Origin: Thermodesulfobacterium thermophilum DSM 1276
Lineage (GTDB): Bacteria; Desulfobacterota; Thermodesulfobacteria; Thermodesulfobacteriales; Thermodesulfobacteriaceae
DNA: 64,000 nt
Reading direction: 5' to 3'
Assembly (NCBI RefSeq): GCF_000421605.1
Contig: NZ_ATXI01000002.1
Location: 1 to 64,000, forward strand
Below the pieces are notes generated by a model. That model did no database searches and was not told the DNA's origin. It saw nothing but the letters and a program-made list of their open reading frames with translations. Positions 659 to 4,493 of this stretch are shown here, in pieces. How positions within the stretch are numbered: position 1 is the first letter of the stretch; each line of letters begins with the position of its first letter. The position numbers were made by a program, and so were the translations under genes.

Positions 659-780
659 TTTTTTCCTCACTGTGCTTTAAAAATTGGGGTGTCAGGGAGG
701 AAATTTTAATTTAAGGGACATTTTTATGATCTAATGCCGTTGACTTGACTCATTTCAAAAATTTTTCTAAAATTTTTTAT

Positions 781-1824
781 ATGGAAGGGTTAGTTTTTTA
801 TCCTGAAAAACTTCCCTTTTATCCTTCGATCTTGAATTTTCTGGAGCATACCTTTTTTCTCGTCCATATCTTGCTTGTTAATCTTATTTTAGGATGGGCG
901 CTGTTTTTTGCATACCAACAGTTTAAAAAAAACTTCCTTCCGGAAATTGCTCTCCTTTTTCTTAAGAAAAAACCGATTCTGTTTGCCTTAGCTATCAACA
1001 TGGCCATCCCTGCCCTTCTTTTCCTTCAGGTAGTCTATGGACCTCTATTTTTTACAAGTTCTATCATACTTGCTAACCATTGGATGCTTATCATCCCTTC
1101 TGTTATCTTGGTCTACTATCTTTCTTACCTCATCTCTAAAAAAATTTCTTTACAAAAATTCTTTAAACCCTTTATTTTTATTCAGGTTTTTATCCTCCTC
1201 TATATAGCCTTTATTTTAGTAAACAATCTCACCCTTATGGAAAATCCCGAAAAATGGAATGTCTATTTTACTAACAGAAAGGGCACCTATCTGCCCTTAG
1301 ACATACCTTATCTATATTTTAAATATCTGCACTTTTTAGTAGGGTCTTTGGCTGTAAGTGGTTTGAGTTTGGGGATTTTAGGACATTATAAAAAGGATAA
1401 AATGTGCCTTATAAAGGGACTAAACCTATTTTTTAGCTTAACCCTGTTGCAAATAGTAGTAGGAATAGCTTTTCTATTATCTCTACCTTCAGAGATAAGA
1501 GGCTTATTTTTAGGCAATGCCCCAAAAGTTGCTTTCTTTTTTTACTTAAGCATTGTTTTTGCCCTCACTTCTCTATATTTTAGCAAAAAGCATCACTTAA
1601 AACTAACCACATCGTTTTTTATACTTACCCTTATTTTTATGGTAGTAAATAGGTTTAACTTGAGAACCCTTCAGTTGTCTTCTTACTATCAAACAAATTT
1701 GTTGCAAGTTTCTCCTCAAATGGGTGTTTTCTTGTTGTTTTTACTGTTTTTGGGGTTAGGGATTGTTACGGTGTATTACTTTTTAAAACATAGTTTCTCT
1801 AAGCAGGGAGAAAGAAAAATATGA
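781..1824 (+). CDS. cytochrome bd-like membrane subunit (partner of the multihaem protein)
   Basis: A 347-residue polytopic membrane protein with about nine hydrophobic segments. Histidines in the first segment (LEHTFFLVH) and at the start of the fifth (YLHFLVG) sit where cytochrome bd subunit I proteins carry haem-b ligands. It overlaps the next gene by four bases (ATGA), so the two are translationally coupled and probably form one complex in the inner membrane. An upstream TTG at 745 is in frame, but the ATG at 781 gives a normal N terminus (MEGLVFYPEK); neither has a strong ribosome binding site. Family assignment comes from the pairing and the His pattern rather than a diagnostic motif. 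It likely anchors haem b or quinone chemistry for the adjoining c-type cytochrome. It could instead be a structural CydB-like subunit. Confidence 0.55.
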   Translation: MEGLVFYPEKLPFYPSILNFLEHTFFLVHILLVNLILGWALFFAYQQFKKNFLPEIALLFLKKKPILFALAINMAIPALLFLQVVYGPLFFTSSIILANHWMLIIPSVILVYYLSYLISKKISLQKFFKPFIFIQVFILLYIAFILVNNLTLMENPEKWNVYFTNRKGTYLPLDIPYLYFKYLHFLVGSLAVSGLSLGILGHYKKDKMCLIKGLNLFFSLTLLQIVVGIAFLLSLPSEIRGLFLGNAPKVAFFFYLSIVFALTSLYFSKKHHLKLTTSFFILTLIFMVVNRFNLRTLQLSSYYQTNLLQVSPQMGVFLLFLLFLGLGIVTVYYFLKHSFSKQGERKI

Positions 1825-4493
1825 ACTATCCTGTTTGGGAAACTTATTTTATAAATCCTGGGCTTTGGGTAGCAATTATTGCGGTTTTTCATGTTTTTAT
1901 TTCTCACTTTGCCGTAGGAGGAGGAATCTATCTCTGGTATACAGACAGACTTTCTGTGTTAAACAACGATCAAGACTTACGAGAATTTGTGCGTAAACAT
2001 ACCTGGTTTTTCCTTTTGATCACGATGGTTTTGGGCGGGGTTTCTGGAGTAGGTATTTGGTTTATCATAGGGATTGCAAGCCCTGAGGCTACCTCAATCC
2101 TTATAAATCAGTTTGTTTTCTTCTGGGCTATAGAATGGGTGTTTTTCTTTGTAGAAATAGTAGCTCTTTTGATATATCACTACAAGTTCGATGAACTGTC
2201 TGACAAACTGCGTCTTAGGGTAGCGATGATATATGCTATCTCTGCTTGGATGAGTTTATTTGTCATAAACGGGATTATTTGTTTTATGTTAACTCCTGGA
2301 AAATGGTTAGAAACCAGAAATCCTTGGCACGGTTTTTTTAATCCTTCAAGTTTTCCAAGCCTATTTTTTAGAACAGGTATCTCTCTTATGTTAGCTGGTC
2401 TTTTTGGAATCTTCAGTACCTTATTTTTTGCCCCCAAAGAAAAAAGACCCTTTCTTTTAAAATATAACGTAAAATGGCTTTACGTAGCCTTTCCCTTTAT
2501 ATTTTTTTCAAGTATCTGGTACTTTCTAACCGTCCCAGAACTATCTAAAGTGTTTAACTTTGTGTTTAACAGACAGGTTCTGATGGCTAAAAAACTTCTT
2601 TATGTTTCCTCTGCGTTGATTTATTTAATTTCTCTTGCTTTTTTAGTAAAAGTCAATCCTGGTTTACAAAGGGTATTAGCTTTTCTCCTTCTTTTTATAG
2701 GGTTGCTATGGTTAGGAAGTTTTGAACATATAAGGGAGTATGCACGAAGACCTTATGTAATATATGGTTATCTTTATTCTTTTGGGATAAGGATTGAGGA
2801 GGAAAAGAAACTTAACAGCAAAGGTTTTTTAAAACATGCAAGATGGGCTATGGTTAAAGAAGTTACAGAAGACAATAAAATTTTGGCAGGAAAAGAAATT
2901 TTCAACCTACAATGTCTATCCTGCCACACCATAAAAGGGCTAAGAAACAATGTGGTTGAAAAAGCCCGGGGGTTTACCTACTTTGGGATGATTTCCCAGT
3001 TATATGGACAAGGAAAAGTTCTTGGTTATATGCCTAAATTTATAGGTACAGAAAAAGAGAGAGAAGCTCTTGCTGCCTTTATTACCAAAGAACTTTTAGG
3101 AAAACCTGAAAATCCTCCAGAACTTAAACCTGCTATCAGGGAACTTAAGGCCCAGCCTTTTACCTTTGACCCACAAAAAGACCAATACGTTGTGTTTGTT
3201 TTTAGTCCTCTGGGCATGAAATGTATTACCGATGCAGACAGGTGGTTTAGCTTTTTATATCCGGGAAGCACTTTTGAAGCTGTGGTTATTAAAAGAGGGT
3301 CTAAACCTGAAATTCTTGACAACACAAAAGTTCAATTAGTTTACAAAGTTGAACCTGGTTTTGAAACACCCTCTAAACATGTCCTTTTCTGGGATTATGC
3401 TAGAGAATTTTTTAATAAGACTATTCCTAAAGATTTAGGTTTAACTGGGAAAGGACTTAACGGTACTTTCGATTGGGATGAAAAAAGAAAAATTTTTATA
3501 GCTAAGGGGATCCCGGTTTTACCTTATAAAAAAGACGGTACATATAACCCTTATCCTGTTTTTGAGATAGAAGCTGTAGATAAAGTTTCAGGCAAAGTTT
3601 TACAGCGCACCAAAGCCGTTTCTCCTGTAGCGACTGAGTTCCGTTGCTATGTGTGTCATGAAGGAAGCCCAAGATGGAATGGTGTAGCCGGTATCTCTGA
3701 TCAAACAGCCATTAACATACTTAAAGCCCATGATAAAAACCATCAAACCAACTTCTATAAATCTGCTCTTCAAGGGAAACCTGTTTTCTGTCAAAAATGT
3801 CATGCCGATTTTATCGTAGGGAATGAGGGAATAAAGGGTCATAATAGTTTTTCAGCAGCCATCCATGGATGGCACGCAAACTATATGCCATATAAAGATG
3901 TAAAAGCTTGTTATTTATGTCATCCTGATCATCCTAAAGGCAATACAAAATGCTATAGAGATATACATAAAAAATTAGGGTTAGAGTGTGTCGATTGCCA
4001 TGGGAACATAGATTTTCATGCTACCTCTCTTCTTAAGGAAACCAACACAAAAACTTCCAAATTTTTGCTTGCTCATCTCAACCCCCCAATACCTAAAGAC
4101 CAGATAACACCAAGAAAGCCCTGGGTACAGCAACCTGACTGTCTTAACTGCCATAAAGGCTTTCAAAAACCAGTAAAAGAGGCTAAGGGTTATAATAACT
4201 GGACTGAAGATGTCTCAGGCCTTTTCCGGGTAAGGAAAGATAACACACAAAAACTACCTTGTCTTGTCTGTCATGGCTCTCCCCATGCATTATATCCAGC
4301 TTTTAACCCTTATGGTATGGGTAGAGATAACCTGCAACCTTTACAGTACCAGAAAAACATCCTACCTATAGGTGCAAACTTAAAATGTGAAGTATGTCAT
4401 GTAAAAAAGATGAAGGTCCCTTTCCATCATCCAAACCTGATAAGAACCTTTAGAAACAGTAAACTTTTACCTTCCCAGACGGACTTAGAATAA
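1821..4493 (+). CDS. cytochrome bd-type subunit I fused to octahaem c-type cytochrome tail
   Basis: An 890-residue fusion. Residues 1-330 contain about eight membrane segments of the cytochrome bd subunit I type, with His residues in the first (FHVFISHFAVGGG) and a quinol-loop-like ARRPYVIYGYLYS near residue 312, comparable to the GRQPW motif of CydA. After it come eight CxxCH haem-binding motifs: CLSCH (about 365), CYVCH (610), CQKCH (657), CYLCH (696), CVDCH (723), CLNCH (774), CLVCH (814) and CEVCH (856). Residues 430-600 form a soluble domain with no motif I recognise. The c-type tail should face the periplasm. The arrangement suggests electron exchange between menaquinone and c-type haems, as proposed for CydA-like proteins carrying fused cytochrome c. 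Whether it reduces O2 or merely links quinol to periplasmic cytochromes cannot be told. The 3' end converges on kup with a four-base gap. Confidence 0.7.
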   Translation: MNYPVWETYFINPGLWVAIIAVFHVFISHFAVGGGIYLWYTDRLSVLNNDQDLREFVRKHTWFFLLITMVLGGVSGVGIWFIIGIASPEATSILINQFVFFWAIEWVFFFVEIVALLIYHYKFDELSDKLRLRVAMIYAISAWMSLFVINGIICFMLTPGKWLETRNPWHGFFNPSSFPSLFFRTGISLMLAGLFGIFSTLFFAPKEKRPFLLKYNVKWLYVAFPFIFFSSIWYFLTVPELSKVFNFVFNRQVLMAKKLLYVSSALIYLISLAFLVKVNPGLQRVLAFLLLFIGLLWLGSFEHIREYARRPYVIYGYLYSFGIRIEEEKKLNSKGFLKHARWAMVKEVTEDNKILAGKEIFNLQCLSCHTIKGLRNNVVEKARGFTYFGMISQLYGQGKVLGYMPKFIGTEKEREALAAFITKELLGKPENPPELKPAIRELKAQPFTFDPQKDQYVVFVFSPLGMKCITDADRWFSFLYPGSTFEAVVIKRGSKPEILDNTKVQLVYKVEPGFETPSKHVLFWDYAREFFNKTIPKDLGLTGKGLNGTFDWDEKRKIFIAKGIPVLPYKKDGTYNPYPVFEIEAVDKVSGKVLQRTKAVSPVATEFRCYVCHEGSPRWNGVAGISDQTAINILKAHDKNHQTNFYKSALQGKPVFCQKCHADFIVGNEGIKGHNSFSAAIHGWHANYMPYKDVKACYLCHPDHPKGNTKCYRDIHKKLGLECVDCHGNIDFHATSLLKETNTKTSKFLLAHLNPPIPKDQITPRKPWVQQPDCLNCHKGFQKPVKEAKGYNNWTEDVSGLFRVRKDNTQKLPCLVCHGSPHALYPAFNPYGMGRDNLQPLQYQKNILPIGANLKCEVCHVKKMKVPFHHPNLIRTFRNSKLLPSQTDLE

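Follow-up and report, generated by a model that had tools for sequence, protein, structure and literature searches.

We analysed a stretch of 64,000 nucleotides from contig NZ_ATXI01000002.1 of Thermodesulfobacterium thermophilum DSM 1276 (hereafter the window; source genome size, 1.79 Mb), in which two adjacent genes encode a cytochrome bd-like membrane protein and a fusion of a CydA-type membrane core with a multihaem cytochrome c. The upstream gene (781-1824, + strand) encodes a partner of 347 amino acids with 8-9 membrane helices and no CxxCH motif. Its start was taken as the ATG at 781; the mechanical open reading frame (ORF) opens at a TTG at 745, and the ORF of a homologue (L003) starts at the corresponding ATG. 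The downstream gene (1821-4493, +), on the same strand with a 4-base overlap, encodes a protein of 890 amino acids. It begins with the CydA-type core (residues 1-322; 1821-2786, +), which has 8 membrane helices, no quinol loop (Q-loop), and the di-haem site residues H24, E105, E112, E306 and R309. The core is followed by a class-I-type monohaem cytochrome c domain (residues ~346-430; 2856-3110, +) with a CxxCH motif at 365-369 and a candidate Met ligand, M404; by a beta-rich domain, delimited by AlphaFold2 secondary structure (residues ~450-603; 3168-3629, +), which forms the first part of a heptahaem module; and by the heptahaem c module proper (3630-4490, +).

A sequence-only reading of this DNA had proposed a CydA-type core joined to eight c-haem sites, with a smaller bd-like partner. 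The ORF carries eight CxxCH motifs, at residues 365, 609, 657, 697, 723, 774, 814 and 856; in 2000 shuffles of the 890 residues the motif count averaged 0.011 and never exceeded 1. Pfam matched Cyt_bd_oxida_I (PF01654) at residues 17-231 (E 1.8e-8, above cut-off), Cytochrome_CBB3 at 354-421 (below cut-off), and Cytochrome_C7 and Cytochrom_c3_2 at about 714-818 (both above cut-off). AlphaFold2, run on the fusion with 65 alignment rows, gave a mean predicted local distance difference test score (pLDDT) of 92.2 and a predicted template modelling score (pTM) of 0.89. These data and the fold comparisons described below agree with the proposed architecture, and the upstream gene, whose product has a bd fold, supplies the smaller partner; the two-gene arrangement, with a bd-like core joined to eight predicted c-haem sites, is thus confirmed.

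Scanning the named genome collection turned up 467 loci coding for a relative. The best 80 of the 467 were kept by a ranking that prefers full-length copies, so these loci do not show how frequent shorter forms are. Since the arrangement recurs across the 80 kept loci, at 38-95% identity in the best segment, we rejected chance or an assembly artefact as its source. Read to the next stop, 67/80 loci have no earlier stop, and 67/67 of these carry exactly eight CxxCH motifs (in L075 and L130 the N-terminus is missing from the stretch read). The remaining 13 show 3 to 8 motifs; they run off a contig end (L064, L076, L106, L113, L126, L139 and L140) or have a stop inside the stretch read (L066, L085, L097, L100, L111 and L128). 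In L066, from Thermodesulfovibrio sp. N1, the end lies in another frame, on a 98-amino-acid ORF, and the gene or its assembly is broken. Most of the 80 loci are metagenome-assembled; among the groups named in their titles are Thermodesulfovibrio, Bacteroidales, Calditrichaceae, Melioribacteraceae, KSB1, Verrucomicrobia, Gemmatimonadales, Cloacimonadota, Spirochaetes, Krumholzibacteriia and many Desulfobacterota. The closest titled match is Thermodesulfobacterium hveragerdense DSM 12571 (L061, 95%); this species and Desulfonema magnum are among the cultured organisms with a copy, which opens the enzyme to testing.

Oxygen site, quinol site and partner of the CydA-type core

We compared the N-terminal ~320 residues of the fusion with the CydA chains of ten Protein Data Bank entries using VIA-align, which gave Z scores of 27.9-30.1 (root-mean-square deviation 2.9-3.5, 312-318 residues aligned); CydA chains were the best matches of the core in this structure comparison. 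Profile comparison of the fused core with 30 canonical CydA sequences of relatives, using hhalign, gave a local probability of 90.1. In an alignment with E. coli K-12 CydA, residues H19, E99, E107, E445 (which sits in the AE-YGRQPW segment) and R448 correspond to H24, E105, E112, E306 and R309 of the fusion; we take H19, E107 and R448 to be active-site residues of the E. coli protein. The roles of E99 and E445, and the assignment of H186 and M393 as b558 ligands, are described in PMC6853902. Conservation was scored across 65 fusions, comprising the window's copy and 64 of the 80 loci, the other 16 being 13 broken or off-contig copies, the near-identical L061, and L075 and L130. H24, E105, E112, R305, E306 and R309 are each present in 65/65 aligned fusions and in 14/14 aligned monohaem relatives. 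A second histidine of helix 1, H29, which aligns with P24 of E. coli CydA, is found in 63/65 fusions and 14/14 monohaem relatives. By its core fold and active-site residues, the fusion belongs to the cytochrome bd superfamily, and it shares both with the canonical CydAB enzymes of E. coli and Geobacillus.

By contrast with these canonical enzymes, the fusion appears to have lost the quinol end of the core. The loop with K252 and E257, presumably the Q-loop residues of E. coli CydA, has no counterpart in the fusion in the alignment with canonical CydA. H186 aligns with F183 and T187 with R184; M393 aligns with I267, as judged by eye in a weak stretch of the alignment. The fusion further differs in its eight c-haem sites, in its partner, and in having 8 core helices, whereas canonical CydA has 9. 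By sequence, then, it seems to lack the Q-loop, the H186/M393 pair and the CydB partner that mark the canonical quinol oxidases (qOR family).

These losses bear on the proposal, made in the sequence-only reading, that the pair is a quinone-to-multihaem conduit instead of a simple oxidase, with a core that would oxidise menaquinol and feed the octahaem tail and periplasmic cytochromes. A membrane core with a multihaem tail does resemble the quinol:cytochrome modules of the Geobacter type. Moreover, a bd-like relative in Nitrospina was once proposed as a possible complex-III-like quinone enzyme, according to PMC3578206. We do not lead with the conduit because the Q-loop and the b558-ligand positions are lost; in addition, the O2-site residues are invariant although a conduit would have no use for them, and the neighbours in some lineages are oxygen-defence genes (see below). 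We therefore consider a conduit unlikely. The separation from ordinary bd oxidases stands, since the 69-row tree described below does not group the fusion with the canonical quinol oxidases that the same genomes encode; a position among ordinary bd oxidases, which would have refuted the sequence-only reading, was thus not observed. The quinone end is not supported, and the direction of electron flow is likely reversed.

The partner has a bd-oxidase fold, with VIA Z scores of 22.1-25.0 for the ten best entries, and its AlphaFold2 model is confident (pLDDT 91.8, pTM 0.89); a Foldseek search with the partner gave no E-value at or below 0.001. Both CydA and CydB chains are among the ten best entries and fit the partner about equally, so the fold does not decide its kinship. 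In hhalign comparisons, a profile of 51 partners matched the fused core with a probability of 95.5 over 273 columns (91.8 in an earlier comparison), as against 0.3 for canonical CydB (27 CydB candidates picked by size and helices) and 0.2 for canonical CydA. Because the partner is profile kin of the fused core and not of canonical CydB or CydA, it looks like a duplicate or paralogue of this family's core (CydA'-like) and not like a CydB. It is the upstream neighbour in 71/80 fusion loci, 60 times as an upstream same-strand ORF among the 76 loci with a parsable fusion frame and 11 times by tblastn among the remaining 20. Four of the nine fusions without an upstream partner begin <170 bases from the end of their stretch (L099, L107, L128 and L130). 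The bd fold of the core would also fit an ordinary bd quinol oxidase whose cytochrome tail is mere decoration; the position of the fusion apart from canonical CydA rows in the tree, the lost quinol-site positions and the lack of CydB likeness in the partner profile leave this explanation barely credible.

Predicted haem ligands and the variable c-type tail

The CxxCH motif at residue 365 and M404 are both present in 65/65 fusions and 14/14 monohaem relatives, and the invariance of M404 in a class-I-type domain suggests that haem 1 (C365) is His/Met-ligated. Beyond residue 600, histidines outside CxxCH motifs at positions 637, 682, 685, 716, 822, 869 and 870 are each present in 65/65 fusions, and H733 is present in 61/65. 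Seven haems accompanied by seven free invariant histidines suggest bis-His ligation of the C-terminal haems. Haems with bis-His ligation generally have lower potentials than those with His/Met ligation, so electron flow would point from the tail to the core.

Residues 430-600 had been described as unrecognised. The segment is the beta-rich start of a heptahaem module that also occurs alone; its best fold matches are weak (Z 6.4 or less, using the whole fusion model). L020, a protein of 423 amino acids, aligns with residues 427-890 of the fusion at 33% identity over 407 columns (E 3e-63), and the part from 455 to 868 has relatives that are separate heptahaem cytochromes. Such stand-alone proteins, which share the beta domain and have no bd core, are encoded at L020:1297-2568, with matches in the genomes G016, G019, G063 and G065 (three separate frames in G065). 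The class-I-type domain likewise occurs in shorter relatives, which end after it.

In one bacterial order, 156/257 genomes match some part of the fusion, with the three best candidates per genome scored. We hand-picked 14 loci (L154-L167) from the hit list of this order and counted the haem motifs that follow the same core: one in L160, L161 and L167; two in L166; three in L154-L156, L158 and L159; four in L157; and eight in L162-L165. A 9-helix-type neighbour judged by eye to be the partner lies upstream or downstream in 14/14 of these loci. Since the same core carries 1, 2, 3, 4 or 8 motifs, the c-haem tail behaves like an input module that can be exchanged. When the five haem-number labels are mapped onto a 56-row tree of cores, in which 28 of the 65 fusions are represented, 6 changes are required, the minimum possible being 4.

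A second tree of 69 rows held 38 of the 65 fusions, 3 more fusions from the window's genus, 14 monohaem relatives, 11 of the 30 canonical CydA sequences and 3 OR-N-like sequences. The canonical, OR-N-like and monohaem rows each fall on one side of a branch, and the fused rows do not. On an outgroup root, the monohaem rows nest among the octahaem rows (96/92); the stems are 3-5 changes per column long and the bootstrap had not settled, so the root, and with it gain versus loss of the tail, is unsure. The four rows from the window's genus group with L062 (Nitrospiraceae) and L063 (Thermodesulfovibrio), with support of 100/99. These nearest kin outside the genus belong to another phylum, suggesting lateral transfer of the fusion.

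Proposed electron input and substrate, and gene neighbourhoods

From the residues, models and relatives described above, we consider it probable that the gene pair encodes a cytochrome-fed O2 reductase of the haem-c, non-quinol branch of the bd superfamily, with its own octahaem wire. The enzyme would be a two-subunit inner-membrane complex, the core keeping two active-site haems and pairing with its paralogue instead of CydB. It would take no electrons from quinol. Low-potential cytochromes of the periplasm, for example c3, would supply them instead, and they would travel through the seven bis-His haems to the His/Met class-I haem next to the core and on to the di-haem site; there O2, and possibly peroxide or nitric oxide (NO) as well, would be reduced with cytoplasmic protons. 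The job of such an enzyme in these anaerobes would be oxygen removal. The sequence work establishes the architecture, its conservation and its spread through the family, the missing quinol-site and retained active-site residues and, for some lineages, the oxygen-defence neighbours; we infer the haem loading, axial ligation, direction, donor, substrate, proton path and partner pairing. The scheme explains most simply why the O2 site is intact and the quinol site lost, why a probable His/Met haem adjoins the core, why the c-haem input is exchangeable and why oxygen-defence genes lie nearby. Electrons most likely flow from the wire towards the O2 site, opposite to their course in a quinol-to-cytochrome conduit, because the quinol-site residues are lost, the O2-site residues are kept and the informative neighbourhoods concern oxygen defence. 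Matches to c3-type cytochromes on two contigs of the window's genome provide candidate donors. Families without a quinol site are described in agreement with a cytochrome-fed enzyme in PMC10839748 and PMC13189123.

We surveyed the neighbours of 76 parsed loci, taking four ORFs on each side and grouping them in blastp clusters. Flavodiiron-type proteins are encoded upstream of six fusions (L085, L095, L100, L101, L132 and L140) and ODP-type proteins downstream of four (L062, L063, L066 and L079); Pfam agrees with these calls in the three loci run (L062, L085 and L132), and also identifies a chemoreceptor-type gene adjoining L062 and a HEAT protein gene adjoining L085. Rubrerythrin (L115), rubredoxin (L076) and a ferritin-like protein (L118) each occur once with Pfam support. 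In 44 genomes that hold 53 matches to PF19583 of at least 56 bits, 0.24 loci would be expected by chance to have such a match within 7 kb of the fusion, and nine were observed (coordinates read by eye). The list of 44 genomes is non-random, having been made after the neighbours were known, and 6/9 cases come from short stretches (L063, L095, L100, L101, L132 and L140); 10/76 is therefore the fairer figure.

The strongest neighbour result is the presence of flavodiiron genes beside partners that are separated from the fusion. The genomes of L091, L093 and L115, in which the partner is not adjacent, each hold one fusion and one partner at different places, and in 3/3 of them the partner has a PF19583 match no more than about 4 kb away. 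By eye, flavodiiron, HEAT-type and partner genes form one run in L201 and L203, with a further small gene in L201, and L202 has the same run with one more gene between; the PF19583 calls in these runs rest on Pfam and the other names on inspection. The L203 run opens, again by eye, with the end of a canonical-type cydA followed by cydB. All three runs, which lie far from the fusion, also hold genes that we named by eye as flavin mononucleotide (FMN) reductase-like.

The same neighbourhoods touch on the possibility that the natural substrate of the wire and core is H2O2 or NO, with the enzyme acting as a scavenger. Flavodiiron proteins generally serve O2 or NO and rubrerythrin serves peroxide, and both lie near some loci. 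Canonical bd enzymes, moreover, are said in PMC10839748 to help detoxify O2 and NO. The fusion retains the O2-site residues, and sequence does not separate scavenging from O2 reduction; we judge a dedicated peroxide or NO scavenger to be quite unlikely.

Several observations weigh against a cytochrome-fed O2 reductase. There is no flavodiiron or ODP gene at 66/76 loci within four ORFs on each side, and the window's own copy lacks flavodiiron, ODP or similar neighbours. The loci that have them come from few related lineages, so the ten cases are not independent events. Five loci lack an adjacent partner although their upstream stretch is 1 kb or longer (L087, L091, L093, L115 and L137; the genomes of three of these five were searched, as described above). 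The window's genome also has a canonical CydA. The direction of flow is read from predicted ligand types, a new quinone site may exist, and the substrate could be peroxide or NO instead of O2.

Strict anaerobes have to dispose of O2, and quinol oxidases and haem-copper oxidases are the membrane routes generally cited for this. That anaerobes of many phyla use the low-potential electrons of periplasmic (or even extracellular) cytochromes, through a quinone-independent bd-type O2 reductase with its own covalent octahaem wire, seems to us, on sequence grounds, about an even bet. If this were true, O2 removal would draw directly on periplasmic H2, on formate or on electrons from outside the cell, with no quinone in between, and the input module would have changed repeatedly (1, 2, 3, 4 and 8 haems) on one conserved unit of core and paralogue. 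To our knowledge, no built-in electron input in the bd superfamily would be longer than this octahaem wire.

Relatives with bd-type cores

The fusion is most readily likened to the OR-C family of the cytochrome bd superfamily, which reportedly carries haem c and was defined by Murali, Gennis and Hemp in 2021; the likeness, a bd-type core without a quinol loop together with haem c, is by description and not by alignment. By sequence, the fusion appears to have the OR-C feature of a haem c site in the bd subunit without a quinol site. In the 69-row tree, with its long stems and unsettled bootstrap, it lies apart from both the canonical and the OR-N-like rows. The family is also described in three citing papers (PMC10839748, PMC13189123 and PMC11707229). 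Among the papers listed in searches of an open-access library, which does not include the defining 2021 study, we recognised none on an octahaem CydA fusion, and we do not claim its absence from print.

Proteins of the OR-N-like or Nitrospina type, as described in PMC3578206 and PMC10839748, share a bd-type active site without a quinol site and have been suggested to be cytochrome-linked. Three proteins from a genome of the window's phylum (L141-L143 in G056), labelled OR-N-like by judgement, have 617-728 amino acids and no CxxCH motif, with separate mono- and dihaem cytochrome genes beside them; the fusion, by contrast, has eight CxxCH motifs. With these and 8 core helices, it lacks the OR-N features of a subunit free of haem c and with extra membrane helices.

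Relatives of the fusion include the unexplained lone CydA homologue of cable bacteria, which, according to PMC10030654, PMC12093952 and PMC11247825, shares the CydA-type core and a C-terminal haem c motif. The possibility that this homologue is an octahaem fusion was ruled out in 13 putative cable-bacteria genomes, in which only the core and the first haem match (model positions 9-434; best E 5.5e-44, most about 1e-19 to 1e-27). Of the 13 loci (L176-L188), 11 encode one CxxCH motif, L181 encodes two and L186 none in the frame read. No partner was seen in the flanks read at the 13 loci, or anywhere in 5/5 genomes searched, and the counterpart of E107 is missing by eye in the three sequences inspected in full. 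The putative cable-bacteria protein looks like a haem-c type and not a quinol type. The cable-bacteria label itself (G136-G148) was inferred from a truncated-haemoglobin match in 12/13 genomes, 7 of them in frames of 500-879 amino acids; G145, which has no such match, was included for its list position and its CydA, and genomes of the same order with short haemoglobin frames were excluded from the count.

Within the window's genus, the fusion occurs in 4/14 genomes, the window's own included, and several other genera of the family have a shorter relative of ~440 amino acids with one CxxCH motif. In two genomes of the genus, canonical cydA is seen only as stop-ridden pieces (G009:C14) or as a short fragment (G003:C17). 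In the window, the gene behind the fusion is convergent and, by eye, potassium transporter-like.

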